DNA from: Eubacteriales bacterium
GTDB lineage: Bacteria; Bacillota; Clostridia; Lachnospirales; Lachnospiraceae
Assembly: GCA_030524175.1 (NCBI GenBank)
Contig: JAUNHC010000006.1
Coordinates: 62,001-126,000 of the forward strand
Reading direction: 5' to 3'
DNA: 64,000 nucleotides
Of the stretch, positions 30,090-46,434 are shown in pieces (position 1 is the stretch's first letter; each line of letters opens with the position of its first letter). A model generated the notes under the pieces. The model ran no database searches, had not been told where the DNA came from, and saw nothing but the letters and a program-made list of their open reading frames with translations. Made by a program: the position numbers and the translations under genes.

Positions 30090-31565
30090 TTAGAGGGGGA
30101 TATTTCCATGCTTTTTCCATAATCTTCTCCGCCTTTGTATTTTCTTCTTTTTCATTGTGTCCACCAAGGCTTCATAAACCTTGTCTCTTGTTTCTTCCGG
30201 CTGTATCACAGCATCGATATAACCCATCTCAAGTCCATGCTTATAATTAATTACTTCCCTGCGGTACTCTGCCTTTTTTTCTTCAAGAAACACACGCCGT
30301 TCTTCCTCTGTCTTCCCTCTGATTTCCTTGGCAAAAATAATTTCCACAGCACCATCCTCCCCCATTACGGCAATTTCAGCCATGGGCCATGAAAATACAT
30401 GATCCGCCCCTAAATGTCTGCTGTTCATAGCGATATATGCCCCTCCGTAAGCCTTTCTCATGATCACATTCAGTTTAGGAACGTCAGCTTCCGCAAAAGC
30501 ATACAACAGCTTAGCGCCATGGCGTATAATCCCTTTCTTTTCCTGGTCGGCCCCGGGGAGATAACCAGGAACATCTGTAAATGAAATCAGCGGGATATTA
30601 AAAGCATCGCAAAAACGTATAAACCGAGCCGCCTTGCTGCTGGAATCACAGTCAAGTATTCCCCCTGCACACAATGGCTGGCTGCAGACAACACCAACGG
30701 TAATCCCATATAATTTAGCAAAACCTATCACAACAGACTGAGCGTATAATGAAGACACTTCCATGAAAGAATCATCATCCATCACATTATGGACCACCTG
30801 GCGGACATCATATCCAAGCCGGGAACTATCAGGAAGCTTAAATTCCGTCTTTCTTTCCTTGATATATTCCTTTTTATTCGGTATCACTGCTTTCTCTCTG
30901 CAATTCTGGGGCAGGATACTTATAAGATAACGCAGAGCATCAAAACAAGACAGTTCATCCTCATAACAAAATTGTGATACACCGCTCTCCCTTGCATGGA
31001 CCTGCCAGCCGCCCAGCTCCTCAGCCGTTATACATCTCCCTGTGACACTCTTCACAACCTTGGGACCTGTGATATACATTTGTCCGATATTTTTCACCAT
31101 AAAAACAAAATCTGTGATCGCAGGAGAGTACACAGCTCCCCCTGCACAGGGTCCTATGATAAGAGAAATCTGGGGAATATAACCTGATGCCCTCACATTC
31201 CGGTAAAAAATCTCACCATAGCCTGCCAGTGAGTCTATTCCCTCCTGTATCCGTGCACCTCCTGAATCGTTCACAACAATCAGCGGACACTTCTTTTTTA
31301 TGGCCAGATCCTGTGCCCTTGCAATATTCTGCCCGTGCTTTAACCCCAAGGTACCGCCCCGGTATGTAAAGTCCTGAACAGCAGCAATCACATCTTTATT
31401 TTTAATTTTTCCCTCGCAGATAATTACACCGTCGCGCTCTTTTTCTGTTGTAAGTTCACTGTAGCTCCCATCATCAAACAGCTTTTCTAAACGCTCTGTC
31501 ACATAAAGCTTCCCTTTTCCATGCTGCTTCTCAATGGCCGCCAAAATCCTCTCATCGTTCTTCAT
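30090..31565 (-). CDS. Acyl-CoA carboxylase carboxyltransferase subunit
   Basis: A 491-aa biotin-dependent carboxyltransferase of the PccB/MmdA/AccD5 type with both crotonase-like halves: N half VNDSGGARIQEGIDSLAGYGE, IGPCAGGAVYSPAITDF; C half DVPGYLPGADQE and IMRKAYGGAYIAMNS. It would move CO2 from biotin to acetyl- or propionyl-CoA, giving malonyl- or methylmalonyl-CoA. No biotin carboxylase or biotin-carrier gene is nearby, so partners must come from elsewhere. It probably supplies extender units to the FabD/KASIII set in this operon. The ATG at 31565 follows GGAGG; the ATG 11 codons earlier lacks one. Confidence 0.88.
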   Translation of the reverse strand: MKNDERILAAIEKQHGKGKLYVTERLEKLFDDGSYSELTTEKERDGVIICEGKIKNKDVIAAVQDFTYRGGTLGLKHGQNIARAQDLAIKKKCPLIVVNDSGGARIQEGIDSLAGYGEIFYRNVRASGYIPQISLIIGPCAGGAVYSPAITDFVFMVKNIGQMYITGPKVVKSVTGRCITAEELGGWQVHARESGVSQFCYEDELSCFDALRYLISILPQNCREKAVIPNKKEYIKERKTEFKLPDSSRLGYDVRQVVHNVMDDDSFMEVSSLYAQSVVIGFAKLYGITVGVVCSQPLCAGGILDCDSSSKAARFIRFCDAFNIPLISFTDVPGYLPGADQEKKGIIRHGAKLLYAFAEADVPKLNVIMRKAYGGAYIAMNSRHLGADHVFSWPMAEIAVMGEDGAVEIIFAKEIRGKTEEERRVFLEEKKAEYRREVINYKHGLEMGYIDAVIQPEETRDKVYEALVDTMKKKKIQRRRRLWKKHGNIPL

Positions 31566-31578
31566 AAAAACCTCCGCA

Positions 31579-33033
31579 CTATCTTCTGTTAAATACACCG
31601 GTTATCATATCTTTTGCCCTGCGCTTCACATAACAATAGGAACTGTTTTTTGTTAAAGCTGACAAAGAAATGTACACAAAAACACCTGCAATGATCTGAA
31701 CTATAAGTTTCGGAATCTGCGCCAGCGGAAAAAGTCCGGCCAGATATACACAGATTCCCATCACTAAACTCATCCAAAGTGCCGGAAATAAATCTAAAAA
31801 CTGTTCCTTTATGGAATAATCAAGAAGCTTACTGTTTGGATATGCATTTACCAGAAGAGAAAAGACAGCAAGCGGAATGGCACATACCGCTACTGCGAAT
31901 ACTCCATACTGAATCATCCAGATAAGGCAGATAACGGTCACAGCTTTCTTCAGTATTTCAATTTTGAGGATAATATCGCTTCTCCCCATTGCTTGGATAA
32001 CCTGAAGGTTGGCTGTATGAAGAGGCCAGAAAACATAACTGAAACACCCTATCCACATATAAGGGACTGCCTCCATCCACACATCAGTGTAAAGGATCGA
32101 TATGAGATTTTCCGATACCACTGCCAGTCCCATCATACATGGAAATATGAGATAGGTACTGCTTGCAATGGATTTTCTCACAAGGCTCTTCAAGCCCATC
32201 TTATTGCCGTTGGCCGCAGAGTATGCAGGGAAGAAAACACTTTGAATGGAAGTATTCACATTTGTTATCACCAATTCAGGAAGACGGTTTCCTCTATTGT
32301 AGAAAGCCAGGTCAGCCTCTGTATATACCTTTCCGATCAGCAGGCTTCTTAAATTTTTATACAAAGTATCAATAAGATTAGAAAAAAACACCTTCCACCC
32401 AAATGAATATAGTGGCTTAAAACGTTCCAGGGAAAATCTGAAGCTGGGATGCCATTCTAACATTAACCATAGAATGACTGTATCCATTATTTGATTTGTA
32501 AGAATCTGACCCACTAACGCCCACACTCCCAGTCCGGAATAAGCCATGGCAATTCCGGCAAAAGCCGAGCATACAGTGCCTCCGATAGTTGCCTTAAAAA
32601 AGAGCTGGAACTGCATTCTTTTTGAAATATAAGCCTGCTGGATGCCGTTGATCCCGCCTAAAATAACAGACAGAGAAAGGACACGTATGATTGGTACCAT
32701 ATCAGGCTTATCATAAAAAGCAGCTACTGCCGGCGCTAAAAAAAAGAATAAAAAATACAGAGCTATAGACATAAAAATATTAAAAACAAATACTGTGGTA
32801 AAATCCAGATCGTCTGCCTCTCTTTTTTGGATAAGTGCAGTAGAAAGCCCGCTCTGGACGAAAACATTCATAATATTGATGATCACAGTGATAAGGGCAA
32901 CCGTCCCGTATGCCTCCGGACTGATGATCCTTGCCAGTACCACCGATACCACAAAGCTTACTCCCTGTGCACCGAAACGTTCTGCCAGCCGCCACAAAAC
33001 ATTTGTGGAAATTGAATTACTACTATTTTTCAT
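31579..33033 (-). CDS. Wzx-type polysaccharide flippase
   Basis: A 484-aa membrane protein with about 14 helices. The opening NVLWRLAERFGAQGVSFVVSVVLARIISPEAYG is typical of the polysaccharide-export/MOP flippases. It should flip undecaprenyl-linked repeat units outward. It overlaps the glycosyltransferase gene by 11 bases. The ATG at 33033 follows GGAAGGTG, preferred over an earlier in-frame start inside the previous gene. Confidence 0.92.
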   Translation of the reverse strand: MKNSSNSISTNVLWRLAERFGAQGVSFVVSVVLARIISPEAYGTVALITVIINIMNVFVQSGLSTALIQKREADDLDFTTVFVFNIFMSIALYFLFFFLAPAVAAFYDKPDMVPIIRVLSLSVILGGINGIQQAYISKRMQFQLFFKATIGGTVCSAFAGIAMAYSGLGVWALVGQILTNQIMDTVILWLMLEWHPSFRFSLERFKPLYSFGWKVFFSNLIDTLYKNLRSLLIGKVYTEADLAFYNRGNRLPELVITNVNTSIQSVFFPAYSAANGNKMGLKSLVRKSIASSTYLIFPCMMGLAVVSENLISILYTDVWMEAVPYMWIGCFSYVFWPLHTANLQVIQAMGRSDIILKIEILKKAVTVICLIWMIQYGVFAVAVCAIPLAVFSLLVNAYPNSKLLDYSIKEQFLDLFPALWMSLVMGICVYLAGLFPLAQIPKLIVQIIAGVFVYISLSALTKNSSYCYVKRRAKDMITGVFNRR

Positions 33034-34138
33034 CAGCAGCACCTTCCATTGCATCAAACAGACATCTCCACTTGTCACTGATGAGACTTATATCTGTGTA
33101 CTTTTGTATTAATCCCATGTTTTTCTTTTTCTTATCACAGGAATAAGTTCTGAATTCATCAAAGGTTTCTTTCTGGATGTCAAAAGCATTTTCAAGTTCA
33201 AACCCTCTCTGCTCATAATTTTCCCACATAGTGGTGTCATCCCGCAGATACAGCTTCACACCCGATGCCAGTGCAATGGCAATATTCCCCATTGCCTGCT
33301 GCCTGTTGTTAAAAAATACTGCCACATCCATATCGCTGATAAAGTTTGAATACGCTTCTCCGTCCATGGATTCAGTGACAGGAACCACCTTATCCCTGCC
33401 AAATATTTCAACAGCCTTTGTGATAACCTGTTCACGATATTCTTCAAAGTTTTTAAAACCATAGGCCAGGGGTAAATGCAGGATCAAATCCTCCTTTGCA
33501 AAATCAGTCATTAATTCCAATGCTTCCATATGACAGTTTGTCTCTGTGGCTGAATTTCCAAGAAGTATTTTAAGGGTTTTCTTATCTTTTCCCTTTGCGG
33601 AGCCTTTTTCCATAAGTCTCTCCATCACCCCCGGCCTCTGGAGGGGAACCGGATAACTGAGAGAAAAGCATTTTCCCCGGACGTGATACCACTCCTTTGC
33701 CAGCGGAAGATCCTTATCCACCAAAGTTGCTATATAACCGATGTCAGGAGCATACTTTTGCTTCAGATATTCCGTAAATTTAACGCCTATCCTTTTTGAC
33801 TCCTTTGTATGGCAGTAAATATCCCCGCCCCATATGACCCAGCAGGTCTTATTGAGCCACTCCTTTTTCCGTGAAATAAAAACAAAGTGTTTAAAATTGA
33901 ACAGGCCGTGCATTACAATGGCATCACACTTATCTATGACTGACAAATACTTAGGCAGATTTTTAGGATTGATCACTTTCGCCCAGCCCTCCCGGCGGTT
34001 CAGCCCTATTGGTGCCCAGGCATCCTTTTTCCTGGCATGTCCTGTGGCAAACTCATGGTCACTGCCGTCGAAACATGTATTGATAAGCATGTACATATCC
34101 TGGGTGTACATGGTTTGGGATAAAATATGTAAAATCAT
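33023..34138 (-). CDS. WecF-like (GT56) glycosyltransferase
   Basis: A 371-aa cytosolic enzyme resembling WecF, the dTDP-Fuc4NAc:lipid-II-like transferase (Glyco_transf_56): MILHILSQ opening, FNFKHFVFI, CWVIWGGDIY, LLGNSATETNCHMEALELM and FFNNRQQAMGNIAIAL. WecF adds 4-acetamido-4,6-dideoxygalactose from a dTDP donor to a lipid-linked sugar. Here the donor is likely a dTDP-4-amino-4,6-dideoxyhexose made by RfbA, RfbB, the aminotransferase and an acyltransferase. It overlaps the polymerase gene by four bases. Confidence 0.88.
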   Translation of the reverse strand: MILHILSQTMYTQDMYMLINTCFDGSDHEFATGHARKKDAWAPIGLNRREGWAKVINPKNLPKYLSVIDKCDAIVMHGLFNFKHFVFISRKKEWLNKTCWVIWGGDIYCHTKESKRIGVKFTEYLKQKYAPDIGYIATLVDKDLPLAKEWYHVRGKCFSLSYPVPLQRPGVMERLMEKGSAKGKDKKTLKILLGNSATETNCHMEALELMTDFAKEDLILHLPLAYGFKNFEEYREQVITKAVEIFGRDKVVPVTESMDGEAYSNFISDMDVAVFFNNRQQAMGNIAIALASGVKLYLRDDTTMWENYEQRGFELENAFDIQKETFDEFRTYSCDKKKKNMGLIQKYTDISLISDKWRCLFDAMEGAADEK

Positions 34139-35436
34139 ATTCTGTTCACCCCCCTTTTTTTAACTATTTTAATACCGGTGCTTCTTATAAATCGTCTTGT
34201 CTGTCCTTGTTCCCTGGGAAATATGAAAAATACGTACACCACCAGCATCCAGAATTGGGGATATCCCCAGAAGGTATCTGACAGAAAAAGCTTTACGTTC
34301 ACGCTTATTAAAATACAGAGAATAGATGACTGGTCCCCCTCTGCTTTTAATAAAGCCTGTACACATTTCCATATAAGAAACACGAAGATGGCAAGTCCTA
34401 AAATCCTGCCGAAATCAATGATCAATTCCAGAAACAGGTTATGGCTGTATCCCCAATAATAATAAGGAGCAATAAACTGCCTGTCTCCAAATGTCCCATA
34501 TCCCAATAAAGGCACATGGGCAATGGCTTCCCGTGCCAGCTGATAAATCGCATCCCGGCCGTTGTCTTCTGCTATGCTGCCGTTCACAAGCATTTCAACC
34601 GTTCTCAAGTTCAACCCCGAAAGGACAGAAGAAATATGGTCCAGGCTAAATTGTATGAGTATATATCCTGAAAGAGCAGCCAGAAGAATCAAGATCTTTT
34701 TTTTCAATGTAACTGTCGTCAGTTCTTTTATGGTATAAAGGATAACGAATATTAAAAAGACAAGCAGGCATCCTCTGGATCCGCCCACCAGTGCCATAAT
34801 AAATGAACAGATTCCCAGAATACCCTGCCAAATCCGGTGCTCTTTTAAGAAAAGAGAGAAAAAAATCAGTGCACAAAACATCACACTGTACCCAAAACCC
34901 AGATTATAACTTTGGGCTGCAGTCCTGCCCTGGTAATCTAATATCTGCCAGTATCCTCTGCTGCCTGCTCCCATAAACTGATATGTACTATAAAAAAACA
35001 GCAGGATCGCCGCAAGCTTCATATTCCGTTTAAGCACCTTACTGTTCTCAGAGCAGAAAACCGCCAGACAAGCCCATAGAGCACCGTTATCCGGTCTGAA
35101 AACGGAATCCCACACCCCATATGTATGGCGTGTATAATATTGCAGATAATCAGGATGAACAGCCAGAGTGACTGTGAAGAGAACTGCAGCAACAGTATAA
35201 AGAGTTGCAAATCTCAGTATACTCCCCGGCATTTTCTTTGCTTTTATCCTAAATATAAGTGTGAGTATCAATGGGATATATATGACTGTATCTGCCGCCA
35301 AAATATAGAACTCCGAAAGTCCGGCCAGTCCAAGCAGCCTTCTGCATACAATTCTTATGAGACCGCCGGAAAACCAGGTAATAAAAAACCAGGCAGCAGC
35401 AGATTCATAACTTATTTTCACCTTCACATTACCCAT
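34135..35436 (-). CDS. Wzy-type polysaccharide polymerase
   Basis: A 433-aa membrane protein with about ten to eleven helices and a long external loop (residues ~285-345) containing REAIAHVPLLGYGTFGDRQF and YWGYSHNLFLELIIDFG, the H-N-x-F/L-E pattern of O-antigen polymerase/ligase proteins. It should join repeat units outside the membrane. The ATG at 35436 follows GAGAGGGATG; the GTG/ATG seven codons earlier is less well placed. Confidence 0.85.
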   Translation of the reverse strand: MGNVKVKISYESAAAWFFITWFSGGLIRIVCRRLLGLAGLSEFYILAADTVIYIPLILTLIFRIKAKKMPGSILRFATLYTVAAVLFTVTLAVHPDYLQYYTRHTYGVWDSVFRPDNGALWACLAVFCSENSKVLKRNMKLAAILLFFYSTYQFMGAGSRGYWQILDYQGRTAAQSYNLGFGYSVMFCALIFFSLFLKEHRIWQGILGICSFIMALVGGSRGCLLVFLIFVILYTIKELTTVTLKKKILILLAALSGYILIQFSLDHISSVLSGLNLRTVEMLVNGSIAEDNGRDAIYQLAREAIAHVPLLGYGTFGDRQFIAPYYYWGYSHNLFLELIIDFGRILGLAIFVFLIWKCVQALLKAEGDQSSILCILISVNVKLFLSDTFWGYPQFWMLVVYVFFIFPREQGQTRRFIRSTGIKIVKKRGVNRI

Positions 35437-35456
35437 ACATCCCTCTCGCAGTCCCA

Positions 35457-36851
35457 TTATTTCAGTTTCGTGTAGATGATTTTTCCTGATTCATTCTTAG
35501 GCAGTTCATCAATGACTTCCGTCCCGAAAGCGGATGCATTAAGGTTCAGCTTTCCGGCTAAATATACAGGAAGCTCGTCTTTCAGGCTGTGGTCCGTGAC
35601 AAATATTGTCATTTTCCTGTCTGTACCTGTACAGGCGCATTCACAGTTATATTTCTCCTTAATGATACGTTCGCACTGGTCCAGGCTGATCCTAAGTCCG
35701 AACAATTTTAAAAATCTGGCTTTTCTTCCCACAATATAATAAAAGCCTTCCGAATCCCTTCTGGCTATATCGCCTGTATGGTACTCGCCTTTCCATTCAT
35801 CACCCTTCTGCAAATCCTTCCTGACAGTCCCGTATCCCATTGTGACATTAGGTCCCCGGTATCCCAGCTCACCCTCAGCCTCTGTCTCTTTCATCTCGTT
35901 TCCGTTTTCATCCAGTAGGAACAGTTCGCCTTCCGGGATTGCCTTTCCGATACTTCCGATTTTTCTCAAAGCCATTTCAGAAGGCAGATACGACATCCTG
36001 GCGCTTGTCTCCGTAGTTCCGAATGTGGGACAAAAACGCTTGCCGGTTTTCGCTGCATATTCTGCCAGTGTGTGAAACATATCATCTGTAAGCTTGCCTC
36101 CGCCCTGGGCGATTGTTCTCAAATCAGGGAGACTCATACGTGTGAATCTCAATTTCATCATAATTTCATAGCTATATGGGACACCGGTAAAATTCGTCCC
36201 GTGATTTGTCTGAATGAAATCCCAAAATCCAGGACTCATCAAATTACTTTTAACAAGCAGGACCGCTGCCCCTACAATAAGATGGCTGCAGATGACATTC
36301 AGGCCCATAGTGTACTGAACAGGCAGATCCATAATACATTTTTCCTTCTTTGTCCAGCCAAATACAACAGCAACATTCTTTGCATTTGACTCCAGGTTCC
36401 CGTATTTGTAACGTACTAATTTAGGACTACCTGTTGAACCTGAGGTTGTGAGAAGCAAAGAAAGATTCTCGTGTACTTTGTATATTTCATATTCTGTCTG
36501 AATCAGGCAGTATCCATAGGCGGAATATACAGGAACCCCTTTTAAGGTGCCCGCCATTGTTTCCGGAATCCAATAATAACGGGGTGTATATGTATGTTCT
36601 AAATTTTCAAGAAGCATATGGTCGATAGATGCACTTAGCAAGAGCGGTACCAGCTTTACAGTCTGGAACGCCACGATTCCTGCAAGTGCTCCGGCCGTAT
36701 TTTCGCAAAGGCAGAATACAATACTTCTTGGAAGGTTCAATTCTTTTACTGCATTTACAAAATCACATAAATCTCCATACGTCATTGTCACTCCGCTGTC
36801 ATCCACAATGGCTGATGAATCCCTGTCAAAGCTGTCAATGTCTAAAAACAT
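35457..36851 (-). CDS. AMP-dependent acyl ligase
   Basis: A 464-aa member of the acyl-CoA synthetase/adenylation family: LLTTSGSTGSPKLV (P-loop), CPTFGTTETSAR, EYHTGDIARRD and the catalytic Lys in KNESGKIIYTKL. It activates a carboxylic acid as acyl-AMP and loads it on CoA or a carrier protein. With two carrier proteins in the operon, loading a starter or finished acyl group onto one of them is likely. GGAGGAG precedes the ATG. Confidence 0.88.
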   Translation of the reverse strand: MFLDIDSFDRDSSAIVDDSGVTMTYGDLCDFVNAVKELNLPRSIVFCLCENTAGALAGIVAFQTVKLVPLLLSASIDHMLLENLEHTYTPRYYWIPETMAGTLKGVPVYSAYGYCLIQTEYEIYKVHENLSLLLTTSGSTGSPKLVRYKYGNLESNAKNVAVVFGWTKKEKCIMDLPVQYTMGLNVICSHLIVGAAVLLVKSNLMSPGFWDFIQTNHGTNFTGVPYSYEIMMKLRFTRMSLPDLRTIAQGGGKLTDDMFHTLAEYAAKTGKRFCPTFGTTETSARMSYLPSEMALRKIGSIGKAIPEGELFLLDENGNEMKETEAEGELGYRGPNVTMGYGTVRKDLQKGDEWKGEYHTGDIARRDSEGFYYIVGRKARFLKLFGLRISLDQCERIIKEKYNCECACTGTDRKMTIFVTDHSLKDELPVYLAGKLNLNASAFGTEVIDELPKNESGKIIYTKLK

Positions 36852-36866
36852 ATCTCTCCTCCGTTA

Positions 36867-37619
36867 TCACATAATAGTACAGCCGTCCACTGCAAGAACC
36901 TGCCCTGACACATAACAGGACAAATCAGATGCAAGAAAAACACAGGCCTTTGCTATATCATCCGGCTCTGCCAGCCTGCCCATGCATATATTTCGGATAC
37001 GGGGCTTAAGCTTTTCCATATCTGCCTGAGCCATCATAGGTGTGAGAGTAAGTCCAGGTGCAATGGCATTGACACGTATATTTTTTTCTGCCAATTCCTT
37101 GGCCGCAGATTTCGTCAATGATACAACAGCTCCTTTTGTGGCTGAATATACCAGTTGTCCCGGGTTACCCCGCAGACCTACCATAGAAGAAATGTTTATG
37201 ATACTTCCCCCTTGAGACTGACGGCCCATGATCCTGCTCACGATCTGAAGCATATTTATGGTACCCATTACATTCACCTGAAACATGCGGTCCATGTTTT
37301 TTCTGCTGATCATGCCGATCAATTCATTAAACTCAACGCCCGCATTATTGACCAGTACGTCAATACAGCCAGCCTCTTTTTTAATAGACATGACTGCATT
37401 TTTAACTTCAGTTTCATCTGTAATATCAAAATATGCCGCGCGCATTCTGCCGGAAAATTTTTTATTTACATCTTCCAGCCACTCATCCATACAGCCCTTT
37501 TGCACGTCATTTGCATATACCAGAGCGCCGTATCCGGCAAACAGCTCCGCCATAGCTCTGCCAATACCCCGGCCTGCACCTGTTATCACACATACCTTTC
37601 CATCAAGAAGCTTATCCAT
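36867..37619 (-). CDS. 3-oxoacyl-ACP reductase-like SDR (FabG type)
   Basis: A 250-aa short-chain dehydrogenase: GAGRGIGRAMAE (NADPH loop), NNAGVE, ISSMVGLRGN with catalytic Ser, and YSATKGAV with Tyr-x3-Lys. The C-terminal LASDLSCYVSGQVLAVDG is FabG-like. It likely reduces a beta-keto group on a carrier protein to the hydroxyl. A second SDR gene lies three genes upstream in the operon, so two reductions or two epimeric products are possible. Confidence 0.9.
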   Translation of the reverse strand: MDKLLDGKVCVITGAGRGIGRAMAELFAGYGALVYANDVQKGCMDEWLEDVNKKFSGRMRAAYFDITDETEVKNAVMSIKKEAGCIDVLVNNAGVEFNELIGMISRKNMDRMFQVNVMGTINMLQIVSRIMGRQSQGGSIINISSMVGLRGNPGQLVYSATKGAVVSLTKSAAKELAEKNIRVNAIAPGLTLTPMMAQADMEKLKPRIRNICMGRLAEPDDIAKACVFLASDLSCYVSGQVLAVDGCTIM

Positions 37620-37641
37620 ATTCTTCTATCCTCCGCGTGCT

Positions 37642-37881
37642 TCAGAATTCCACTCCGCTTTTCCGAAGTATTTCTATTCCATTCAAATAAGAACCATAAT
37701 GCAGGATATCTTCCGTCTCCAGCATTACACCAAAAGTATCCTCCAATTCAGTAATCAGATTCAGGTGGGCCACTGAATCCCAATTTGGAACAGAGCCGAA
37801 CACAAATTCCTCTCCCAGCAGTTCCTTATCCACAGAAAAAACTTTGGCGAAAATATTGTCATATAATTCCTTGTTGCTCAT
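37642..37881 (-). CDS. Acyl carrier protein (second copy)
   Basis: A 79-aa four-helix carrier protein with the attachment motif WDSVAHLNL, phosphopantetheine Ser36. The DSxxHLNL form is more common in polysaccharide- or ligase-associated carriers than the DSLxxVEL of housekeeping ACP. Its ATG at 37881 follows GGAGAGG; a GTG two codons earlier overlaps the previous stop. It is two bases from the other carrier gene. Confidence 0.9.
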   Translation of the reverse strand: MSNKELYDNIFAKVFSVDKELLGEEFVFGSVPNWDSVAHLNLITELEDTFGVMLETEDILHYGSYLNGIEILRKSGVEF

Positions 37882-37883
37882 TC

Positions 37884-38114
37884 TCACGCCTCTCCTTCCT
37901 GCATATGCTCAAGGATATCTGCCACTGTCACAAATTTTTTAATCATATCCCCTGTAAGCTGGACACCGAATTCATCATCCATCATCACAATCAATGATAG
38001 CTTGGCCATAGAATCATATTCGTCAATGTCAGCCAATTCCATATCAGGCACAAGTGTCCCTTCTTCCAGGTCAAGCAGTTCCTCTAATAAATTCAATTTT
38101 TTCATCTCGTCCAT
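37884..38114 (-). CDS. Acyl carrier protein (first copy)
   Basis: A 76-aa carrier protein with EYDSMAKLSLI (attachment Ser35) and the usual helix III VTVADILEHM. Strongly acidic. GGAGGAAAA precedes the ATG. Having two different carriers side by side suggests separate starter and extender stations, or one for chain building and one for delivery to the sugar acyltransferase. Confidence 0.9.
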   Translation of the reverse strand: MDEMKKLNLLEELLDLEEGTLVPDMELADIDEYDSMAKLSLIVMMDDEFGVQLTGDMIKKFVTVADILEHMQEGEA

Positions 38115-38140
38115 TTGTTTTCCTCCTCTGGTATCTTAAT

Positions 38141-38905
38141 TTATGAACTTGTTGTTCCGCCGTCCACCGGCAGTGTGATCCCTGTAATAAATTTAGCGGC
38201 AGGGCTGATTAAAAATGCAATTGCATTGGCGATATCTGAAGTCTCAGCAATTCCTAAATACTGACGCTTGCAAAGGTCATCTGCTGCCTGGCTGTCCGCT
38301 CCGTATTTATCTATGAACTTTTCATACATTTCTGTGGCAGTCATGGCGGGAGCCACTGTATTCAGGCATATTTTTTTATCAGCCAGTTCCTTGGCAAGAC
38401 AGCGCACAGTGGAATCCATAGCAGATTTTGTTGCTGAATATGCAGTATGGGCTTTATCTCCGCACAGAGAAGCGATGGAAGAAACACCAACAATACGCAT
38501 CCCTTCATTGTATCTGCCCCTTTTGCAGACCTGGCGCACTGCCTCCACAAAACCGAAATAGTTGATATTAAAAGCTTGCTGGAGTTTTTCCGGTTTCAGC
38601 ATTGCAAGGGGATAGGATGCTGTAATTCCGGCCGCATATACCATACCGTCGGCTTTTCCTTCAGTGGCTGCAATCTTTCTGAACAAACTTTCAATTTCGT
38701 TCACCTTGCTCAAATCGAACACAAAGTATGAATGACCTGTCCCGTAAAGAGCCTTCATGACCTCCTGAAGCTTCTGCTCCCTTCGGGCAACCAGGATCAC
38801 ATTGGCTCCTGCCCTGCTTAAAGTCACCGCAGTCTCCCTGCCGATTCCTGAAGACGCGCCCAGGACAATTATTTTTTTCCCTGTCAAATCAATTATCTTT
38901 GTCAT
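38141..38905 (-). CDS. Short-chain dehydrogenase, second ketoreductase
   Basis: A 254-aa SDR: LGASSGIGRETAV, YAAGITAS, VSSIASLCG with catalytic Ser and YSATKSAMD with Tyr-x3-Lys; ends ITLPVDGGTTSS. Related to FabG but distinct from the other SDR of the operon. Probably a carrier-bound ketoacyl reductase. The ATG at 38905 follows AGGAGA; an earlier frame start lies inside the KASIII gene without a site. Confidence 0.88.
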   Translation of the reverse strand: MTKIIDLTGKKIIVLGASSGIGRETAVTLSRAGANVILVARREQKLQEVMKALYGTGHSYFVFDLSKVNEIESLFRKIAATEGKADGMVYAAGITASYPLAMLKPEKLQQAFNINYFGFVEAVRQVCKRGRYNEGMRIVGVSSIASLCGDKAHTAYSATKSAMDSTVRCLAKELADKKICLNTVAPAMTATEMYEKFIDKYGADSQAADDLCKRQYLGIAETSDIANAIAFLISPAAKFITGITLPVDGGTTSS

Positions 38906-38921
38906 TGGCGATTCTCCTGTA

Positions 38922-40010
38922 TCAATACTTGCCCGGCTGGAATTTTCCTTCGGCAAAATAGTCCTCTGTCTCAGCAATCGGGAAAATATTCTCTGTATCC
39001 AGCACTGCCGATGTCACGCCCCAGGAAAGTCCGATGCCGAACCCACACATAAGTGCCTTTATCTTCTTACTCTCCTGAGTTCCGAAGGTATCACAAAGTG
39101 TAAGGGGAATTGATATGCCTCCTGTATTGCCGAAACGGTCCAGGGAAATCGGTACTTTCTCTTTTTGGGCTTTTATTTTTCTTGTAATTTGTTTCAGAAT
39201 AAACTGGTTTGCCTGGTGGAATACAAGTGTGTCAAAATCATCAACACTGCTGCCTGTGTAAGCCAAATATTCTTTAATCGTCTGGGGTACATCTGTGATT
39301 GAAAATGAAAATACCGAAGTTCCATCCATAAAGATGTCATAAAGTGACCGCTCAATACCGTCACTGCATAGAAAAGTTTCATGGGTGGGATTCATATCCC
39401 GGAATCCTCCTGCCGGCAATACGATTGAAGAAAAGCGATTGCCGTCGCTTTTCAGAAGTGTGGTAACCATTTCCTCCCCGCTGCGTTCCAGCAGCACTGC
39501 CGCTCCCGCGTCTCCGTACATCATTACAATAGATTTATCCAAAGGATTCACAAGCTTCGAAGCTGTCTCTCCAAGCAAAAGCAACGCATATTTCATATCT
39601 GACGATGTCATCAGAGACATGGCAGTCTGCAGCCCGTAAACAAATCCGGAACAGCCAAGCCCCACATCCATGACTGCACAATCTATGGCAAGCCCCAGTC
39701 TTTTCTGAAGAACACAGGCTGTAGCCGGCCTCCGGTAATCCGGCGATTGTGTGACAAAAACCAAAGCACCGATCTCAGAACGTTCTATACTGATTTCAGC
39801 CAGCAATTTCTCTGCCGCCGAATATGCCAGATCGCCTGCTGTCTGCTGGGGGAGTGCTTTATACATTTGGGCGATCCCCGTACCTTCGGTAAACTTATCG
39901 GCTGCTTCTTCCCCAAACACGCTGTTAAAGCTTTTCACTGTAACTTTGTTTTTAGGCACAACACAGGAAATACCTGCAATTGAAAGCCCTTTATTCGTAA
40001 AATACGCCAT
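38922..40010 (-). CDS. KASIII (FabH-like) ketoacyl synthase
   Basis: A 362-aa thiolase-fold enzyme with the complete triad: Cys120 in VGLGCSGFVYGL, His265 in VFHQANQF and Asn295 in RFGNTGGISIP. KASIII condenses an acyl-CoA starter with malonyl-carrier protein, giving a 3-ketoacyl product. It is flanked by FabD, ketoreductases and carrier proteins, so it probably makes a short acyl chain for the polysaccharide. The ATG at 40010 follows GGAGA at ten bases; the ATG three codons earlier is too close to it. It overlaps the metallo-hydrolase gene by 20 bases. Confidence 0.92.
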   Translation of the reverse strand: MAYFTNKGLSIAGISCVVPKNKVTVKSFNSVFGEEAADKFTEGTGIAQMYKALPQQTAGDLAYSAAEKLLAEISIERSEIGALVFVTQSPDYRRPATACVLQKRLGLAIDCAVMDVGLGCSGFVYGLQTAMSLMTSSDMKYALLLLGETASKLVNPLDKSIVMMYGDAGAAVLLERSGEEMVTTLLKSDGNRFSSIVLPAGGFRDMNPTHETFLCSDGIERSLYDIFMDGTSVFSFSITDVPQTIKEYLAYTGSSVDDFDTLVFHQANQFILKQITRKIKAQKEKVPISLDRFGNTGGISIPLTLCDTFGTQESKKIKALMCGFGIGLSWGVTSAVLDTENIFPIAETEDYFAEGKFQPGKY

Positions 40011-40647
40011 ACTTATCATTCTCCTTATCAGCTAAAACAAATGGTCCATAATGACCGGGATATACCTTGACTCCCCAGGGAAGGGACTGAATACGCTTTT
40101 CTGAAACAGTTTTCCAGCTTTTTATATCTCCCCCCGGGAAACCCAGTTCTGTCTTCCCTTGTTTAAATAAACTGTCTCCTGAGAAAAAATACTGATCATT
40201 AACCAGCACACCAATACTTCCCTCAGAATGCCCCGGCAGTTCAAATAGTTCTATATGGTTTCCGTTCCATGTGAACTTAGTTCTGTCCCTGAATGTAATA
40301 TCGGCCTGACATCTGTAATCATGATCAATGTCCACATCCCCCTCCTGGGCGGCATAACTCTGAAGTTTATAAAAAGCCTCAAAATACCGGCTCATATTTT
40401 TGCGGGGATTTCCTATATTACAGGCACAGGCTTCACTGCACAGCACACAGGCACCATACTTCTGCTTCCATTGGTTTACACCGGAAATATGGTCATAATG
40501 CTCATGGGTTAAAATGATTTTATCTATTTCATAATCCATGCCGGGGGCAGTATTGCGGAACGGGTCAATCACAATGGCAGATTTCTTATGTACTATAAGA
40601 TACATATTAGAAACCATCAAATCTGATTCAAACCTGAGTATCTTCAT
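39991..40647 (-). CDS. Metallo-beta-lactamase-fold hydrolase
   Basis: A 218-aa hydrolase with all metal motifs: LTHEHYDHISG (HxHxDH), LPGHSEGSI, FFSGDSLF and YPGHYGPF. The fold is that of glyoxalase-II-type thioester hydrolases. Between FabD and KASIII genes, a thioesterase that releases or edits carrier-bound acyl chains is the most likely role. It overlaps its neighbours on both sides by 20 bases, so coupling is tight. Confidence 0.85.
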   Translation of the reverse strand: MKILRFESDLMVSNMYLIVHKKSAIVIDPFRNTAPGMDYEIDKIILTHEHYDHISGVNQWKQKYGACVLCSEACACNIGNPRKNMSRYFEAFYKLQSYAAQEGDVDIDHDYRCQADITFRDRTKFTWNGNHIELFELPGHSEGSIGVLVNDQYFFSGDSLFKQGKTELGFPGGDIKSWKTVSEKRIQSLPWGVKVYPGHYGPFVLADKENDKYGVFYE

Positions 40648-41575
40648 TTATCTTCCTCAAGGACTGCACTGTCTGATTTAATGTTTTTATATCCCCTGTC
40701 CGATAGACGTTCACATTTTTTAAAGTTTTTCTCACAAGTCCCCACAGAGTTTTTCCCGGTCCGCATTCCACATAAGTATCTGTTCCTGCCGCCCGCATAT
40801 TTTCAAGTAACTGTACCCAATGGACAGGGCTCATTGCCTGACGGACAAGCAGAGCCGGAATCTCTTCCGTATTTTTCACAGGCAGGGCCGTGACATTAGA
40901 GTAAACAGGTATACGCGGACAGGAAAACTCAATGTTTTTTAACGCATTCTCCAGCTTGCGCGCTGCCGGCTCCACCAGCTTACAATGAAACGGTGCACTT
41001 ACAGGGAGCATTACTGCCTGTATGTTTCTCTCCTGTGCCAGTCTCATCACATTGTCTACCGCAGCCCTGGTACCTGATATAACAGTTTGAACCGGGCTGT
41101 TGTAATTAGCAGGTATCACATATCCGTCTTCAGCCTCTCTGCAAAGTTCCTCTACAGTCTCCGCCTCTGTTCCTATCAATGCTGCCATAGCACCTTCTCC
41201 CACGGGCACAGCCTCCTGCATGGCATCAGCACGAAGCTGCACCACCCGGAAGGCATCAGCCATTGAAATTACACCGGAAAAAACAAGCGCGGCATATTCC
41301 CCCAGGGAAAAACCTGCAGCAGCCGACGGATGGAACCCCTTTGACAAAAGTACATACCCGGCCGCTAAATCTGCTGCCAGCATACAGCATTGTGTATTAT
41401 GTGTCAGGTTTAAATCCTCCTGCGTTCCCTCAAAACACAGACTGCTCACTGGTCGTCCCAGTACCTTGTCTGCACATTCAAACACATTTCTTGCACTCTC
41501 ATATTCATCATATAAATCTCTCATCATACCCGGGTATTGGGAACCCTGGCCTGAAAATAAAAATGCTGTATTCAC
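40628..41575 (-). CDS. fabD: Malonyl-CoA:ACP transacylase
   Basis: A 315-aa FabD-family enzyme: FSGQGSQYPGM, the nucleophile in GFSLGEYAAL (GFSLG instead of GHSLG), conserved Arg in VQLRADAMQ, and His in APFHCKL. It transfers malonyl from CoA to carrier protein. Presence of this enzyme within the sugar operon, rather than a housekeeping fab cluster, supports a dedicated pathway. The changed residue next to the nucleophile may alter extender choice; that is speculation. Confidence 0.9.
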   Translation of the reverse strand: MNTAFLFSGQGSQYPGMMRDLYDEYESARNVFECADKVLGRPVSSLCFEGTQEDLNLTHNTQCCMLAADLAAGYVLLSKGFHPSAAAGFSLGEYAALVFSGVISMADAFRVVQLRADAMQEAVPVGEGAMAALIGTEAETVEELCREAEDGYVIPANYNSPVQTVISGTRAAVDNVMRLAQERNIQAVMLPVSAPFHCKLVEPAARKLENALKNIEFSCPRIPVYSNVTALPVKNTEEIPALLVRQAMSPVHWVQLLENMRAAGTDTYVECGPGKTLWGLVRKTLKNVNVYRTGDIKTLNQTVQSLRKINEDTQV

Positions 41576-41589
41576 TTGACCATCCTCCT

Positions 41590-42240
41590 TTAAAGCTTTA
41601 TCCGCCTGGCCGGATTCCCCAGCACATGGGTTTCAGGCTTCACTTTTGTAAATACAATACTCCCAGCTGCTATCACTGCATCATCCCCCACAGTGACATG
41701 GGGAACAATAAACGCATGGCCTCCTATACGTACACGTTTTCCAATGTTAACATTTCCGGTCAGCCCGCATCCTCCCATAATGCACGAATAATCGCCAATC
41801 ACCACATCATGTCCAAGTGTTGTGCCACCATTAAGCACCACACCTTTGCCGATCCGTATATTAACCGTGGCCAGCACTCCATGGGCTATGATCGCCCCGT
41901 CACCGATTTCCACCGAGTCATGGATTTCCACATCCGGGGAAACCAATGATTCAAACCTGACTCCCTGCTCTTCCAACTCCTGCTGGATACGCTCCCTTGC
42001 CTTTGGTTCTCCTATGGTACAAGAACAAAAAACATCTGTCTTATGCCTGAACATCCATTCCCTTGTTCCAAGCACCGGATATCCGTTCACCTCTGTCCCA
42101 GGTCTATAAAAACTGTCATCAACAATAAATCCTAACAGCTCATAGGTTGGACGTATTTGATTAATGCGTTCGATCAAGTAGGCTGTCTCCCTGCCAAAGC
42201 CTCCGGCTCCATATAATACTATTTTCTTCATTTCCATCAT
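41590..42240 (-). CDS. NeuD/PglD-type sugar acyltransferase
   Basis: A 216-aa protein with an N-terminal nucleotide-sugar-binding domain (KKIVLYGAGGFGRE) and a C-terminal left-handed beta-helix built from hexapeptide repeats (VEIGDGAIIAHG, TTLGHDVVIGDY, GKRVRIGGHAF). The His in LGHD is the likely catalytic base. Such enzymes acylate the 4-amino group of UDP/dTDP-4-amino-4,6-dideoxyhexoses. The donor is normally acetyl-CoA; here an acyl carrier or acyl-CoA made by the neighbouring genes is possible. ATGA overlap with the sugar-transferase gene. Confidence 0.9.
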   Translation of the reverse strand: MMEMKKIVLYGAGGFGRETAYLIERINQIRPTYELLGFIVDDSFYRPGTEVNGYPVLGTREWMFRHKTDVFCSCTIGEPKARERIQQELEEQGVRFESLVSPDVEIHDSVEIGDGAIIAHGVLATVNIRIGKGVVLNGGTTLGHDVVIGDYSCIMGGCGLTGNVNIGKRVRIGGHAFIVPHVTVGDDAVIAAGSIVFTKVKPETHVLGNPARRIKL

Positions 42241-42953
42241 TTCACTTCCAATGTTCCCATAAATTCTCCGTCAATGCGTTCCCCCCGTATCTTTGCCCTC
42301 TTTCTGTTAAAAACCAGCCTGACCAGTCTGAACAGCATAATACAATCTGTCCTGAAACTGATATTCTCAACATACCACACGTCATTTTCAAGCCGTTCCT
42401 CCCAGGATACCTCATCTCCTGCATAATCAGGCATGGGACATTCCAAGCCGGGACGCACCGCATGTCTCATATGCTGGCGCTTGTTATAACGGGGCAGGTA
42501 TTTCATAAGTAAGGGCCTTGGTCCTATCAGCGACATCTTTCCTGTAAAAATCAATCCGAACTGCAGCAGCTCATCCAGGGATGTCTTACGGAGAAGCTTC
42601 CCCAAAGACGTGATCCTCTCGTCCGGCGGAAGCAGGTCCCCGTTTTCGTCTGTATCCATGGTCATATTCCGGAATTTAATAATCCGAAATGGTATTTCGC
42701 CTAACCCGGGTCTTTCATGTACAAAAAAGACTGGCTGTCCTAAATCAAACAAGGTAAGCACTGCGATTATCAGATTTATGGGAAGCGTAAGGATAATTGC
42801 CAGCAGAGATACTATAATATCAATGGTCCGTTTTACATATTTAATATAAAATGACTTCTTGATTTTTAATTCGCCGGCAGCATATGGATTTGTGTAGTCT
42901 TGATCCAAGGCACCGAAATACGGCATATTCGTTCCCTTATTATGTAATTTCAT
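42237..42953 (-). CDS. Initiating sugar-phosphate transferase (PglC/WbaP type)
   Basis: A 238-aa bacterial sugar transferase: one membrane helix (RTIDIIVSLLAIILTLP), RPGLGEIPFRIIKFRNM, TSLGKLLRKTSLDELLQF and MSLIGPRPLL. It loads the first sugar phosphate onto undecaprenyl phosphate, starting the repeat unit on the inner face of the membrane. The ATG at 42953 follows AAGGAAG, 11 bases after the aminotransferase stop. Confidence 0.93.
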   Translation of the reverse strand: MKLHNKGTNMPYFGALDQDYTNPYAAGELKIKKSFYIKYVKRTIDIIVSLLAIILTLPINLIIAVLTLFDLGQPVFFVHERPGLGEIPFRIIKFRNMTMDTDENGDLLPPDERITSLGKLLRKTSLDELLQFGLIFTGKMSLIGPRPLLMKYLPRYNKRQHMRHAVRPGLECPMPDYAGDEVSWEERLENDVWYVENISFRTDCIMLFRLVRLVFNRKRAKIRGERIDGEFMGTLEVK

Positions 42954-42964
42954 ATTTTCTTCCT

Positions 42965-44068
42965 TTATCTGCTCATAGAGATCACGATTTCGCAAATTCT
43001 GTCAACAGCCTCCATGGGAAGATCTGCAAACATGGGCAATGTCAGTATGTTCTTAGATACCTTATCCGACACAGGTGTATTTCCATGATTCAGTTTCCCT
43101 TTATAAGCCTCAAATTCATTTGTGGCCGGATAAAAATATTTCCTTGCATAAATATCATACTCATTAAGTTTCTGGCAGAGTGTATCCCGCTCTGTTCCAA
43201 ACACCTCCGGCTCTATGTATAATGGAAAATACGAATAATTAGGAACCATACCAGCCCTGTAATGAATGGTCCGCAGGCCGTCTATCCCCTGAAAATATTC
43301 CATATACTTCTCAAAAACAGCTTTCCGTTTTAAAATTTCCTGTTTAATATGGCGCAGATTGCAGATTCCCATTGCAGCCCGGAATTCGTCCAGTTTTGCA
43401 TTAGCTCCCACATCCTCAACCTCATCTTCTGTCACAATGCCGAAGTTTTTCAGATAGTGAAGCCGTTTCCTGAAGCTCACATCAGAAAAAGTGACAGCAC
43501 CGCCTTCTATGGTATTAAAAACCTTTGTAGCATGGAAACTGAACATAGAAGCATCTCCGAAATTACCCACACCAATACCGTTATAGGTAACCCCGAAAGC
43601 ATGTGCTGCGTCATAAATAACCTTTAAATCATATTTTTTAGCAATCCTGTCAATGGCCTCCACATCACACATGTTTCCGTATACATGCACCGGAAGGATT
43701 GCCGTAGTTTTATCTGTGATAAGCTCCTCAATCTTTTCAGGATCCATAGTATAATCATCTGGCTTGATATCACAGAAAACAGGAGTGATTCCGTTTCGGA
43801 CGATCGCATGGGTGGTAGATGCGAATGTATAGGGGGTAGTGATTATCTCCCCGCTTAAATTCAATGCCTGGATCGCAAGTTCCAAAGCCATATGTCCATT
43901 GGCGAACAGGGATAGCTGGGGAACTGACAGATAATCTTTTAATTGATATTGAAACTTTTTGTATATCGGTCCCATATTTGTCAGGTAATGACTTTTCCAG
44001 ATAGGCTTAATCTCCTCTACAAATTCCTCCAGATCAGGCATTGATGAACGTGTCACAAAAATACTCAT
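42965..44068 (-). CDS. DegT/DnrJ/EryC1-type sugar aminotransferase
   Basis: A 367-aa PLP enzyme of the sugar aminotransferase family: TTPYTFASTTHAI, VIYDAAHAFGVTYNG with the PLP-binding Asp, and FSFHATKVFNTIEGG with the Schiff-base Lys. It should aminate the keto carbon of dTDP-4-keto-6-deoxyglucose made by RfbA/RfbB, giving a 4-amino (WecE/VioA-like) sugar. GAGGGGG precedes the ATG. It is the first enzyme gene of the polysaccharide operon, 201 bases downstream of the TnpB-like gene. Confidence 0.9.
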   Translation of the reverse strand: MSIFVTRSSMPDLEEFVEEIKPIWKSHYLTNMGPIYKKFQYQLKDYLSVPQLSLFANGHMALELAIQALNLSGEIITTPYTFASTTHAIVRNGITPVFCDIKPDDYTMDPEKIEELITDKTTAILPVHVYGNMCDVEAIDRIAKKYDLKVIYDAAHAFGVTYNGIGVGNFGDASMFSFHATKVFNTIEGGAVTFSDVSFRKRLHYLKNFGIVTEDEVEDVGANAKLDEFRAAMGICNLRHIKQEILKRKAVFEKYMEYFQGIDGLRTIHYRAGMVPNYSYFPLYIEPEVFGTERDTLCQKLNEYDIYARKYFYPATNEFEAYKGKLNHGNTPVSDKVSKNILTLPMFADLPMEAVDRICEIVISMSR

Positions 44069-44098: not shown

Positions 44099-44269
44099 AA
44101 ATAACAATTTCTATAACTTTGAATATACCCCGCTGGCCGCGGTTCTTCGGCGACTCCTTATCGGCCCGCCCGGCGATATTCGACCAAATAATACGCGCCG
44201 CTGGCCCGTATCATTGCGCCGGTTTCCCGGCTTCTATATAAGGGCATTTTCATGCCGCTTATGCAGCTA
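44099..44269 (-). ncRNA. Structured GC-rich leader, possible guide RNA of the TnpB-like protein
   Basis: Read on the minus strand directly after the TnpB-like stop codon. It folds as: an ATAAG-GGCAT stem capped by GAAA (44243-44256 core), a GCCGG-GAAA-CCGGC hairpin (44218-44231), then a core closed by GGCC-A-GCGG (44206-44198) pairing with CCGC-GGCC (44142-44135), enclosing a GGCG/TATT stem with AATA/CGCC. Then follow TTCAA (44123-44119) and an AT-rich tail starting AGTTATAGAAATTG. TnpB omegaRNAs lie at exactly this place, at the 3' end of the gene, with the guide as the tail. TTCAA resembles IS200/IS605 right-end cleavage sites. The structure is seen; the guide role is inferred. It could instead be a leader controlling the operon. 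Confidence 0.6.
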
Positions 44270-45466
44270 TTATTCTCCCGGGCAATATCCTTTTCCCGCA
44301 AAGCTCTCCTGACATTTCCGCCCGAGATTTCTGGCATCGTTCAAAAACCGGTTTCCTGTGTGACCGTTTTCACATAATGACAGCTTTCCTTTTTTCCTCA
44401 CCTTTCCTCCGCATACCGCACAATGGCTGCTGATTCCCTCTGCTCCTGCTTCCAGCACCAGAATACCCTGACTCCATGCTTTGTACTGCAGATACCTTCG
44501 GATTCTTTGACTGAGAAACAACGGGGTAAAACTACCGGTGCGATACATTACCATCCTGGAGAAATCTATATCATAGTCAGGAACCACAATGATCCCTGCT
44601 TTTTCAACTGTGCAGAAATCTACAATTTCCCTGCTCACTTGGTGGGCATAATACTCTGACAAATGTTTCAGATGCATAAAATGCTTTTTTTCAGGCTGAA
44701 GAGAATTATCCTTTTCTGTATAGATCCGGGACTTTTTTATTTTTTCTAAAAGCTGTCTGCAATAATGGCGGTAAGCATCTCCGCCCCGGCAGGTGTGTAC
44801 AGCCTGCTGTCTTCCATTTTCATCAAGAACACAGCACATTGCAAAAATATCAGTATTAGTAAATCTTATACTGCAGATATTCTCCCCTGCTCTCATCCGC
44901 TCCTTAGCAGTACGTGAGTCCGGATTATCCTGTTTCACAGGAATATGCAGCATATACCATTTGTCCTGCCTCACAAGTGCAGGCGAAAGCAGATTACAGT
45001 GTTTCGGAAAATCACGGCCGGTAAGACGGCAGGGAACCCACTCCCATTTACATCCATTCCATAGCTTCAATGTGATTTCTGTATCTGAAAGTCCCCGGTA
45101 CATTCCTTTGAAAAAAGTGACCGATGCATCATGAATTATCGGGAATCCATTTGTACATCCTACAGAAACTGCTGACTTTACGGCTTCCGCAGCCTTATTT
45201 ATGGCCGAACGCCTGAAGTATACCGGAACCTTCTCATATGGAAGGGGATATTTGGGTATTCTTCCGTCTCTTCCCGGCACAGTAAGAATTTCCAGTTCCC
45301 TCTGAATCGTGTATATGCTCTTTGTCCAGAGCGCCTCCTCTTGTATAAGCAGTCTGTAATAAAAATCAAAAACATCCCTGTAGTACGATTCTGACCGCTC
45401 AAGCCACTGTTCCTTGGGACAAAAAAGTCTCATTTTCCAGGTTCGAATACTATATCCTGTTTTCAT
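44270..45466 (-). CDS. TnpB-family protein with substituted RuvC catalytic sites
   Basis: A 398-aa protein built like the Lachnospiraceae IS200/IS605 TnpB accessory proteins: N-terminal YSIRTWKMRLFCPKEQ and SYYRDVFDFYYRLL, beta region LKLWNGCKWEWVPCRLTG, RuvC-like C half, and a zinc ribbon (Cys349, Cys352, Cys365). By eye the catalytic Asp of RuvC-I falls on Arg201 (CSIRFTNTD), the Glu of RuvC-II on Pro296 (IIVVPDYD), and the Asp of RuvC-III on Phe374 (GNRFLNDARN). So it appears nuclease-dead, like TldR RNA-guided repressors. No tnpA or transposon ends are seen. The ATG 45466 follows AGGAATGAG; a -10-like TAGAAT lies at 45495-45490. The frame is intact, arguing for function. Confidence 0.8.
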   Translation of the reverse strand: MKTGYSIRTWKMRLFCPKEQWLERSESYYRDVFDFYYRLLIQEEALWTKSIYTIQRELEILTVPGRDGRIPKYPLPYEKVPVYFRRSAINKAAEAVKSAVSVGCTNGFPIIHDASVTFFKGMYRGLSDTEITLKLWNGCKWEWVPCRLTGRDFPKHCNLLSPALVRQDKWYMLHIPVKQDNPDSRTAKERMRAGENICSIRFTNTDIFAMCCVLDENGRQQAVHTCRGGDAYRHYCRQLLEKIKKSRIYTEKDNSLQPEKKHFMHLKHLSEYYAHQVSREIVDFCTVEKAGIIVVPDYDIDFSRMVMYRTGSFTPLFLSQRIRRYLQYKAWSQGILVLEAGAEGISSHCAVCGGKVRKKGKLSLCENGHTGNRFLNDARNLGRKCQESFAGKGYCPGE

Positions 45467-45788
45467 TTTCACTCATTCCTAATTGTCATATTCTATCAGT
45501 AATGGGATTTTTTACCGAAAACCAAGGAAACAAGCAGGATAAACACTGTTTGACCATTAACAAAACCATTTATATCGTGACATATAAAAAAGATTGGAAG
45601 CTGTAAGACACAAATAATAAAAGAAATAAAGGCTTAGAAGATGACAGCGTTCAGAACATTGACCATGATTCTGACCACTTATAGATTGTGGATAAAAAAC
45701 CTCGTGTAATATAAAAATCAAAAATACCTCCAAAAAAGGTGATTTAGACGGTAAATATGACAAATTTACAATAGACTGTCATTACGTG
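45467..45788. other. AT-rich region upstream of the TnpB-like gene
   Basis: About 320 bases without a supported gene. It must hold the promoter for the TnpB-like gene and perhaps the whole polysaccharide operon. A short inverted repeat (GTAAAT/ATTTAC near 45751-45769) is visible. Confidence 0.4.
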
Positions 45789-45817
45789 TTGACATTTTTC
45801 ATAATTCGCTGTAAACT
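45789..45817 (+). promoter_or_regulatory. Strong promoter pointing away from the polysaccharide operon
   Basis: TTGACA, exactly 17 bases, TAAACT. No open reading frame follows; a terminator comes 46 bases later. Confidence 0.75.
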
Positions 45818-45823
45818 AACACT

Positions 45824-45892
45824 GTCATATTGGAACGCACTAAAACAACAGAATTTTCTATTGTCGCAATACTGATATATTGCGACTTTTTT
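45824..45892 (+). ncRNA. Candidate ~70-nt small RNA
   Basis: Delimited by the promoter at 45789-45817 and an intrinsic terminator (GTCGCAATA / TATTGCGAC plus six T) at 45863-45892. The predicted transcript has no start codon with a ribosome site. It is encoded divergently from the TnpB-like gene. Function unknown; a regulator of the adjacent operon is possible. Confidence 0.55.
45863..45892 (+). terminator. Terminator of the candidate small RNA
   Basis: Nine-base-pair perfect stem, six-base loop, and TTTTTT on the plus strand. Confidence 0.9.
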
Positions 45893-46362: not shown

Positions 46363-46434
46363 CTACCTGTAAACAGATAAGTAACACTACCTACATGATT
46401 GAAACTGTATACGCATCTGAAAGGAGGTAAAATT

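Follow-up and report, generated by a model that had tools for sequence, protein, structure and literature searches.

A TldR-like family associated with polysaccharide operons in gut Clostridia and its possible role in RNA-guided control of the sugar coat

Why should a TnpB-type protein that has lost its nuclease be encoded at the head of a polysaccharide operon? This question is raised by a gene in a 64,000-nucleotide stretch of Lachnospiraceae DNA, analysed here as a whole and called the window. The gene is located at 44270..45466 on the reverse strand, with an ATG start at 45466 and a possible GTG start at 45472. The original prediction, made by eye, described a domesticated, nuclease-dead TnpB homologue that retained the full TnpB layout and had no tnpA nearby. 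In the window protein, the positions of the RuvC triad are occupied by Arg, Pro and Phe instead of three acids, and the intact D/E/D of an active TnpB nuclease was found in none of the 36 sequences in the profile alignment (0/36), in which the second and third places were set by the profile and the first by the motif and the predicted strand. The predicted structure has the Cas12f/TnpB fold over most of its length, and the zinc ligands are invariant across the family. The sole Pfam match was the Cas12f TNB domain, and membership of the NusG-like or UpxZ proteins was not indicated by this search. The assembly of the same genome (90.7% complete) contained no PF01797 (tnpA) match and no canonical TnpB, and in six other genomes searched, no listed PF01797 match came closer to a tldR copy than about 14 kb (G052). 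These results bear out the original prediction for the three catalytic positions, the layout and the absence of tnpA.

The region 3′ of the tldR stop is conserved in structure, and not merely in sequence. A guide-RNA (omegaRNA-like) scaffold core is located at 44118..44233 on the reverse strand, and it scored 100.2 bits with the covariance model R1. In alignment A1, which contains 30 of the 33 extracted copies after omission of three close duplicates, a four-helix structure including a pseudoknot was paired in 87.1% of the cells, as compared with 69.4% for shuffled and at most 42.4% for slid sequences, a score that is favoured because the structure was written from those very sequences. Double-sided changes occurred in 24 of the 30 scaffold pairs. 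The pseudoknot strands (44176-44181 and 44121-44126 in the window, reverse strand) were paired in all 30 copies (100% of the cells), with compensatory changes such as AU to GC and UA to CG. When the covariance model was applied to 64 genomes of the genus, 33 matches were obtained in 14 genomes, and every one was located 3′ of a tldR, no more than about 0.5 kb from it and before the following genes. None was found away from a tldR in these genomes, although weak stand-alone scaffolds could escape, because the filters were strict and the model was built from 30 of the 33 matches. A search of Rfam yielded one chance-level miRNA match only. In the distant locus L160, a weak scaffold match (9828-9971; 16.9 bits, E 0.064) lies 5′ rather than 3′ of the tldR.

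The scaffold core is followed by the putative guide GTTATAGAAATTGTTA at 44102..44117 on the reverse strand, which has a near-constant GTTAT and is variable thereafter; the boundary between scaffold and guide is presumed. The scaffold 3′ ends were located by a pattern that itself requires AAGT(T/A)NT, and this pattern was in place in 34 of the 39 family entries, a count that includes two misplaced rows (L045 and the first of L064). The guide started with GTTAT in 33 of 37 copies and with GTTATA in 19 of 37, the window copy among them, and no column exceeded 0.83 bits after GTTAT. The scaffold ends of distant relatives differ (GAGTTAT, GAGATAT and others).

A degrading transposon relic without function would be expected to leave broken copies, and a few are present: L150 has one internal stop and L046 is split. 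Most copies, however, have open reading frames, and these frames and the invariant zinc ligands indicate selection, as do the compensatory RNA changes and the constant layout of the loci; moreover, the genome of the window copy lacks a detectable tnpA. We regard a relic as very improbable.

The genes behind tldR are mostly those of polysaccharide synthesis. In the window, the operon at 30090..44068 on the reverse strand, presumably a single transcript, encodes a DegT aminotransferase, a PglC-like sugar transferase, a PglD-like acetyltransferase, acyl-chain enzymes, Wzy_C, GT56, a flippase and a carboxyltransferase (30090-31598). It includes, at 35457-41575, a small fatty-acid/polyketide-like set composed of a FabD-like acyltransferase, KAS III, carrier proteins, SDRs and an AMP ligase, which hints at a coat sugar carrying a tailored acyl chain. 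In a set of 86 downstream proteins, which includes four window proteins, the top Pfam families were nucleotide-sugar epimerases, Polysacc_synt_2 and glycosyltransferases. Polysaccharide-type genes were found behind tldR in 36 of the 39 loci tested (28 of 30 loci, 7 of 8 further loci and the window, a few being close strains), including loci from distant Clostridia. For the count of 30 loci, one downstream gene each was submitted to Pfam, mostly the first long one and in some cases one 2-4 kb on; 27 fitted by the gene submitted, and L060 fitted by its second gene, FdtA. Four loci, L033 (CoA_binding_3), L042 (GHMP kinase), L061 (DUF4422) and L063 (DUF1972), were counted on the assumption that these domains keep their usual company. 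The exceptions were L049 (rhamnosidase, AraC), the second L064 copy (AAA-ATPase_like) and L140 (Ig-like surface protein). The placement at the head of a polysaccharide operon recurs among the relatives, as the original prediction supposed. The family has the features of TldRs, namely an inactivated RuvC triad, an adjacent guide-RNA scaffold, no tnpA and a stable association with non-transposon genes, and judged by sequence it is a polysaccharide-associated, TldR-like family, in keeping with domestication. L053 and L054 are homologous up to a point 11 nt past GTTAT (L053:9339-9350), beyond which their genes are unlike. It looks as if tldR and the guide RNA form a fixed module placed before swapped capsule operons.

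The family was found in 16 of 145 relatives' genomes, counting the genome of the window, which has four tldR-like copies and no further guided_TnpB match. In a sample of the family-rank group, 9 of 397 genomes, from 8 of 334 genera, were positive. Blautia schinkii, B. massiliensis, B. parvula and Coprococcus comes are the named carriers. The distant members (29-36% identity) belong to uncultured Clostridia and Lachnospiraceae, and those that were aligned also lack the RuvC acids. In genome G419, a family member has a canonical TnpB as a near neighbour (L117:1-1032), the frame of which has an intact D-R-D motif. Phage records gave one weak TnpB-type match, and plasmid records gave five.

How the expression of such a locus may be set is suggested by the region upstream of tldR. 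In the window, an inverted-repeat arm that is likely a recombinase site adjoins tldR at 45485..45507, and the outer arm is located 356 nt away at 45864..45886. The two arms are 74% complementary, weaker than those of the relatives and under the threshold of the family repeat scan. The likely invertible segment between them contains a promoter, TTGACA-17-TAAACT, at 45789..45817 on the forward strand, which matches 10 of 12 consensus positions and is the best of 11 promoter-like sites (6.3 expected). This promoter points away from tldR, and the window copy is probably off, because its best promoter faces away from the gene. In L050, a similar promoter (9/12) faces tldR, although chance alone would give 5.1 such sites and the likeness to the window promoter was judged by eye; on this reading, three of the four copies in the genome are off and L050 is on.

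Inverted repeats of at least 14 nt (14-49 nt, with one mismatch allowed in the core and an enclosed segment of about 0.14-1.6 kb) were found upstream of 40 of 44 copies, counted without a shuffled control; three of the 40 were 14 nt only, and two of these three look like chance. The best consensus promoter of each segment pointed away from tldR in 24 cases and toward it in 11, with two ties and three segments without any, again without a control. More direct evidence was obtained from pairs of copies. Between L061 and L062, a 1,447-bp segment (91.6% identical) is reversed, while its flanks are 97-98% alike, and at the level of the aligned sequences this is proof of promoter inversion in the relatives. 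The reversed segment contains a Phage_integrase gene. Similarly, L043 and L063, two copies in one genome, have a common 371-bp segment in reversed orientation. All five of the integrase-like upstream genes submitted to Pfam belonged to tyrosine-type phage integrase families, the contig-cut integrase of L050 being matched mainly through its N-terminal domain. No integrase adjoining the window switch was present among the ORFs listed, and the recombinase would therefore act from elsewhere. Upstream of the switch, at 46399-48207, the window contains pieces of AAA-ATPase_like (PF09820) and PDDEXK_9, and one L064 copy is followed by a gene combining both domains.

A second element was found in leaders. 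A search of seven genomes for GATAAGTTATAWWA gave six matches, all of them in tldR leaders (6/6), and none for the reversed control. The same 14-mer gave 19 matches in 64 genomes, 9 of them in tldR leaders, as compared with 10 for the reversed control; seven of the ten matches outside tldR leaders were viewed, and by eye five of them did not resemble polysaccharide leaders. The related GATAAGTTATA was located between the guide RNA and the first gene in L039 (NTP_transferase) and L150 (fucose pyrophosphorylase), and 38 nt before a Bac_transf gene in L199, on a contig of G046 without a tldR match. The element, GATAA-GTTATA, contains the near-constant start of the guide and precedes polysaccharide genes with and without tldR. 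We regard these leader elements, with moderate confidence, as putative operators for sibling control. In L200, a leader element at oriented position 1107 (reverse strand) lies near an ORF whose end resembles, by eye, the GlmS-like ORF upstream of tldR in L056, and is followed by a 2088-aa protein without a Pfam match; L200 is perhaps a lost tldR locus.

In many loci of Blautia-type gut bacteria, the gene between the switch and the polysaccharide genes looks like an RNA-guided regulator of the choice of sugar coat. The TldR-like protein would be a TnpB that has lost the nuclease and kept the fold and the guide-RNA scaffold, encoded in loci with the order promoter, tldR, guide RNA and polysaccharide operon. 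A tyrosine recombinase would probably flip the promoter between its on and off orientations, and the RNP would therefore be produced only while that locus is on. The binding site of the RNP would be a short operator in the leaders of sibling polysaccharide loci, a TAM-like GATAA followed by GTTATA, which would be read by the first six nucleotides of the guide, and transcription would be blocked there but not at the RNP's own locus. The template strand, on which dead Cas12 blocks elongation more effectively, would be the one paired with the guide. Such cross-silencing would limit the number of sugar coats made simultaneously, in the manner of UpxZ. The sequences support the dead active site, the predicted fold, the conserved RNA, the promoter inversion in relatives, the multi-copy association with polysaccharide genes and the motif common to seed and operator; the TAM, the DNA binding, the repression and the regulatory direction, as well as the guide boundary, are inferred. 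Taken together, we put RNA-guided cross-silencing of sibling loci at slightly less than an even chance. The comparison with UpxZ, drawn already in the original prediction, gains weight from three features not noticed there: the promoter is invertible, each genome has several copies, and a leader element includes the start of the guide. A prediction of this proposal is that the window protein binds the leader of the C79 copy (L051) of its own genome.

The distribution of seeds and operators speaks partly for and partly against this proposal. Against it, the GTTATA operator is absent from the own leader in 25 of 37 copies, including the window copy, and none was found in G009 and G020. The GTTATA seed occurred in 1 of the 12 copies with a GTTATA operator, as compared with 18 of the 25 others (Fisher p 0.0004); on the tree, however, this contrast comes down to 3-4 independent pairs, is not significant and is contradicted by L043. 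In its favour, of the 19 copies that have the operator in some form, the own seed was equal to the own operator in one, while 4.0 were expected (permutation p 0.008, uncorrected for kinship). The GATAA-GTTATA motif was picked after inspection of the data, and guide and operator have only five to six nucleotides in common. Guide nucleotides 6-15 matched the leader elements no better than shuffles (p 0.75), and AAGTTAT had only five scattered occurrences upstream of copies without the leader element. It is possible, although we consider it rather doubtful, that in phase-variable capsule loci a short TldR seed silences siblings at GATAA-GTTATA and that a mismatch between own seed and own operator lets each locus escape, which would be a self/non-self rule without a CRISPR array.

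The same leader can be read at the level of RNA. By binding the scaffold while the leader is being transcribed, the protein may cause antitermination or attenuation, with DNA targeting lost and GATAAGTTATA serving as an ops-like element, a logic for a long operon like that of UpxY, LoaP and RfaH. The position of the scaffold between tldR and the next genes in all 33 matches, the lack of conservation in the guide beyond GTTAT, and the occurrence of the element on the sense strand before polysaccharide genes even without tldR are consistent with this. On the other hand, most of the protein is predicted to fold like DNA-targeting proteins, and the known TldRs work on DNA (PMC13418256). We consider this role improbable.

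Cross-silencing through a longer guide was also considered, but the search with four guides in five genomes gave no convincing match in trans, and this form is unsupported. The window guide (18 nt, up to three mismatches) matched itself at zero and 15 other places at three mismatches, while the reversed control gave 23. The L067 guide in G014 found only itself within two mismatches, and 8 matches in total vs 45 in the control. The totals for the L053 guide in G052 and G004 were 51 and 52 vs 53 and 57 in the controls; two places with one mismatch were common to both genomes, and three of four one-mismatch matches were viewed, which lie in long frames without GATAA or GTTAT directly before them. 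The L056 guide gave 86 matches in G005 (16 in the control), of which one had a single mismatch; this match and one at two mismatches were viewed, and both are within long frames. Guides matched upstream regions of siblings about equally well in the same genome (9.44/12) and in other genomes (9.38).

The window guide has no perfect match other than itself, which would also be expected if the RNP acts in cis, on its own scaffold/operon junction or own leader, so as to adjust the output of its own operon. The guide is complementary to this junction by origin, it varies with the downstream operon, as at the L053/L054 boundary, and the scaffold is found beside tldR only. Against autoregulation, the own seed is unlike the own operator in 18 of 19 copies, and the sequence that we suppose to be the TAM, GATAA, does not precede the guide in the own scaffold. 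We judge autoregulation in cis unlikely. If the cross-silencing of siblings is true, TnpB-derived, RNA-guided transcription factors govern the choice of surface polysaccharide in common gut commensals. It would add a new target class of TldRs besides flagellin and peptide transport, a Gram-positive counterpart to the capsule exclusion of Bacteroides, and a natural example of very short guides coupled to DNA inversion.

In the literature search, no paper was found that links polysaccharide loci with TnpB or TldR, although a mention in the 2024 Nature TldR paper is possible, and the text of the 2026 TldR paper (PMC13418256), as far as it was available, has no word starting with polysaccharide, capsul, Blautia or Lachnospir. 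As far as the literature found shows, three features are new: the association with polysaccharide genes, the switch of the tyrosine-recombinase type and a short seed that recurs in a leader operator. With regard to active TnpB and omegaRNA of IS200/IS605, the family is alike in the predicted fold and in the scaffold at or behind the 3′ end of the gene, but differs in that the nuclease residues are absent in 36 of 36 aligned sequences and the own genome is without tnpA. In Bacteroides fragilis, capsules are controlled by UpxY and UpxZ together with Mpi inversion, UpxY being NusG-like and UpxZ a NusG-inhibiting protein, with no guide RNA. As in that system, a regulator gene heads phase-variable capsule operons at several loci per genome, with possible cross-silencing, whereas a protein with a predicted Cas12 fold and a guide-RNA scaffold are found here. 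The csrA-associated TldRs of Oscillibacter and Flavonifractor also belong to gut Clostridia and are likewise multi-copy, with four loci in one Oscillibacter strain; PMC13418256 describes hin, a serine invertase, mostly upstream of these csrA-linked loci, DNA inversions in Flavonifractor, and guides that match their CsrA and fliC targets. In the present family, in contrast, the upstream inversions are accompanied by tyrosine-type integrases and polysaccharide genes, with no csrA among the Pfam matches listed. The flagellin-associated TldR of Enterobacter prophages resembles the present family in its TnpB homology, inactivated RuvC, adjacent scaffold and link to genes for a surface structure, and a 6-nt guide was enough for it in an E. 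coli motility test (PMC13418256). Unlike that TldR, the guide here is unconserved past about five nucleotides and its target is putative, and the family is associated with polysaccharide operons in Lachnospiraceae and other Clostridia, with several paralogues per genome and an invertible promoter.
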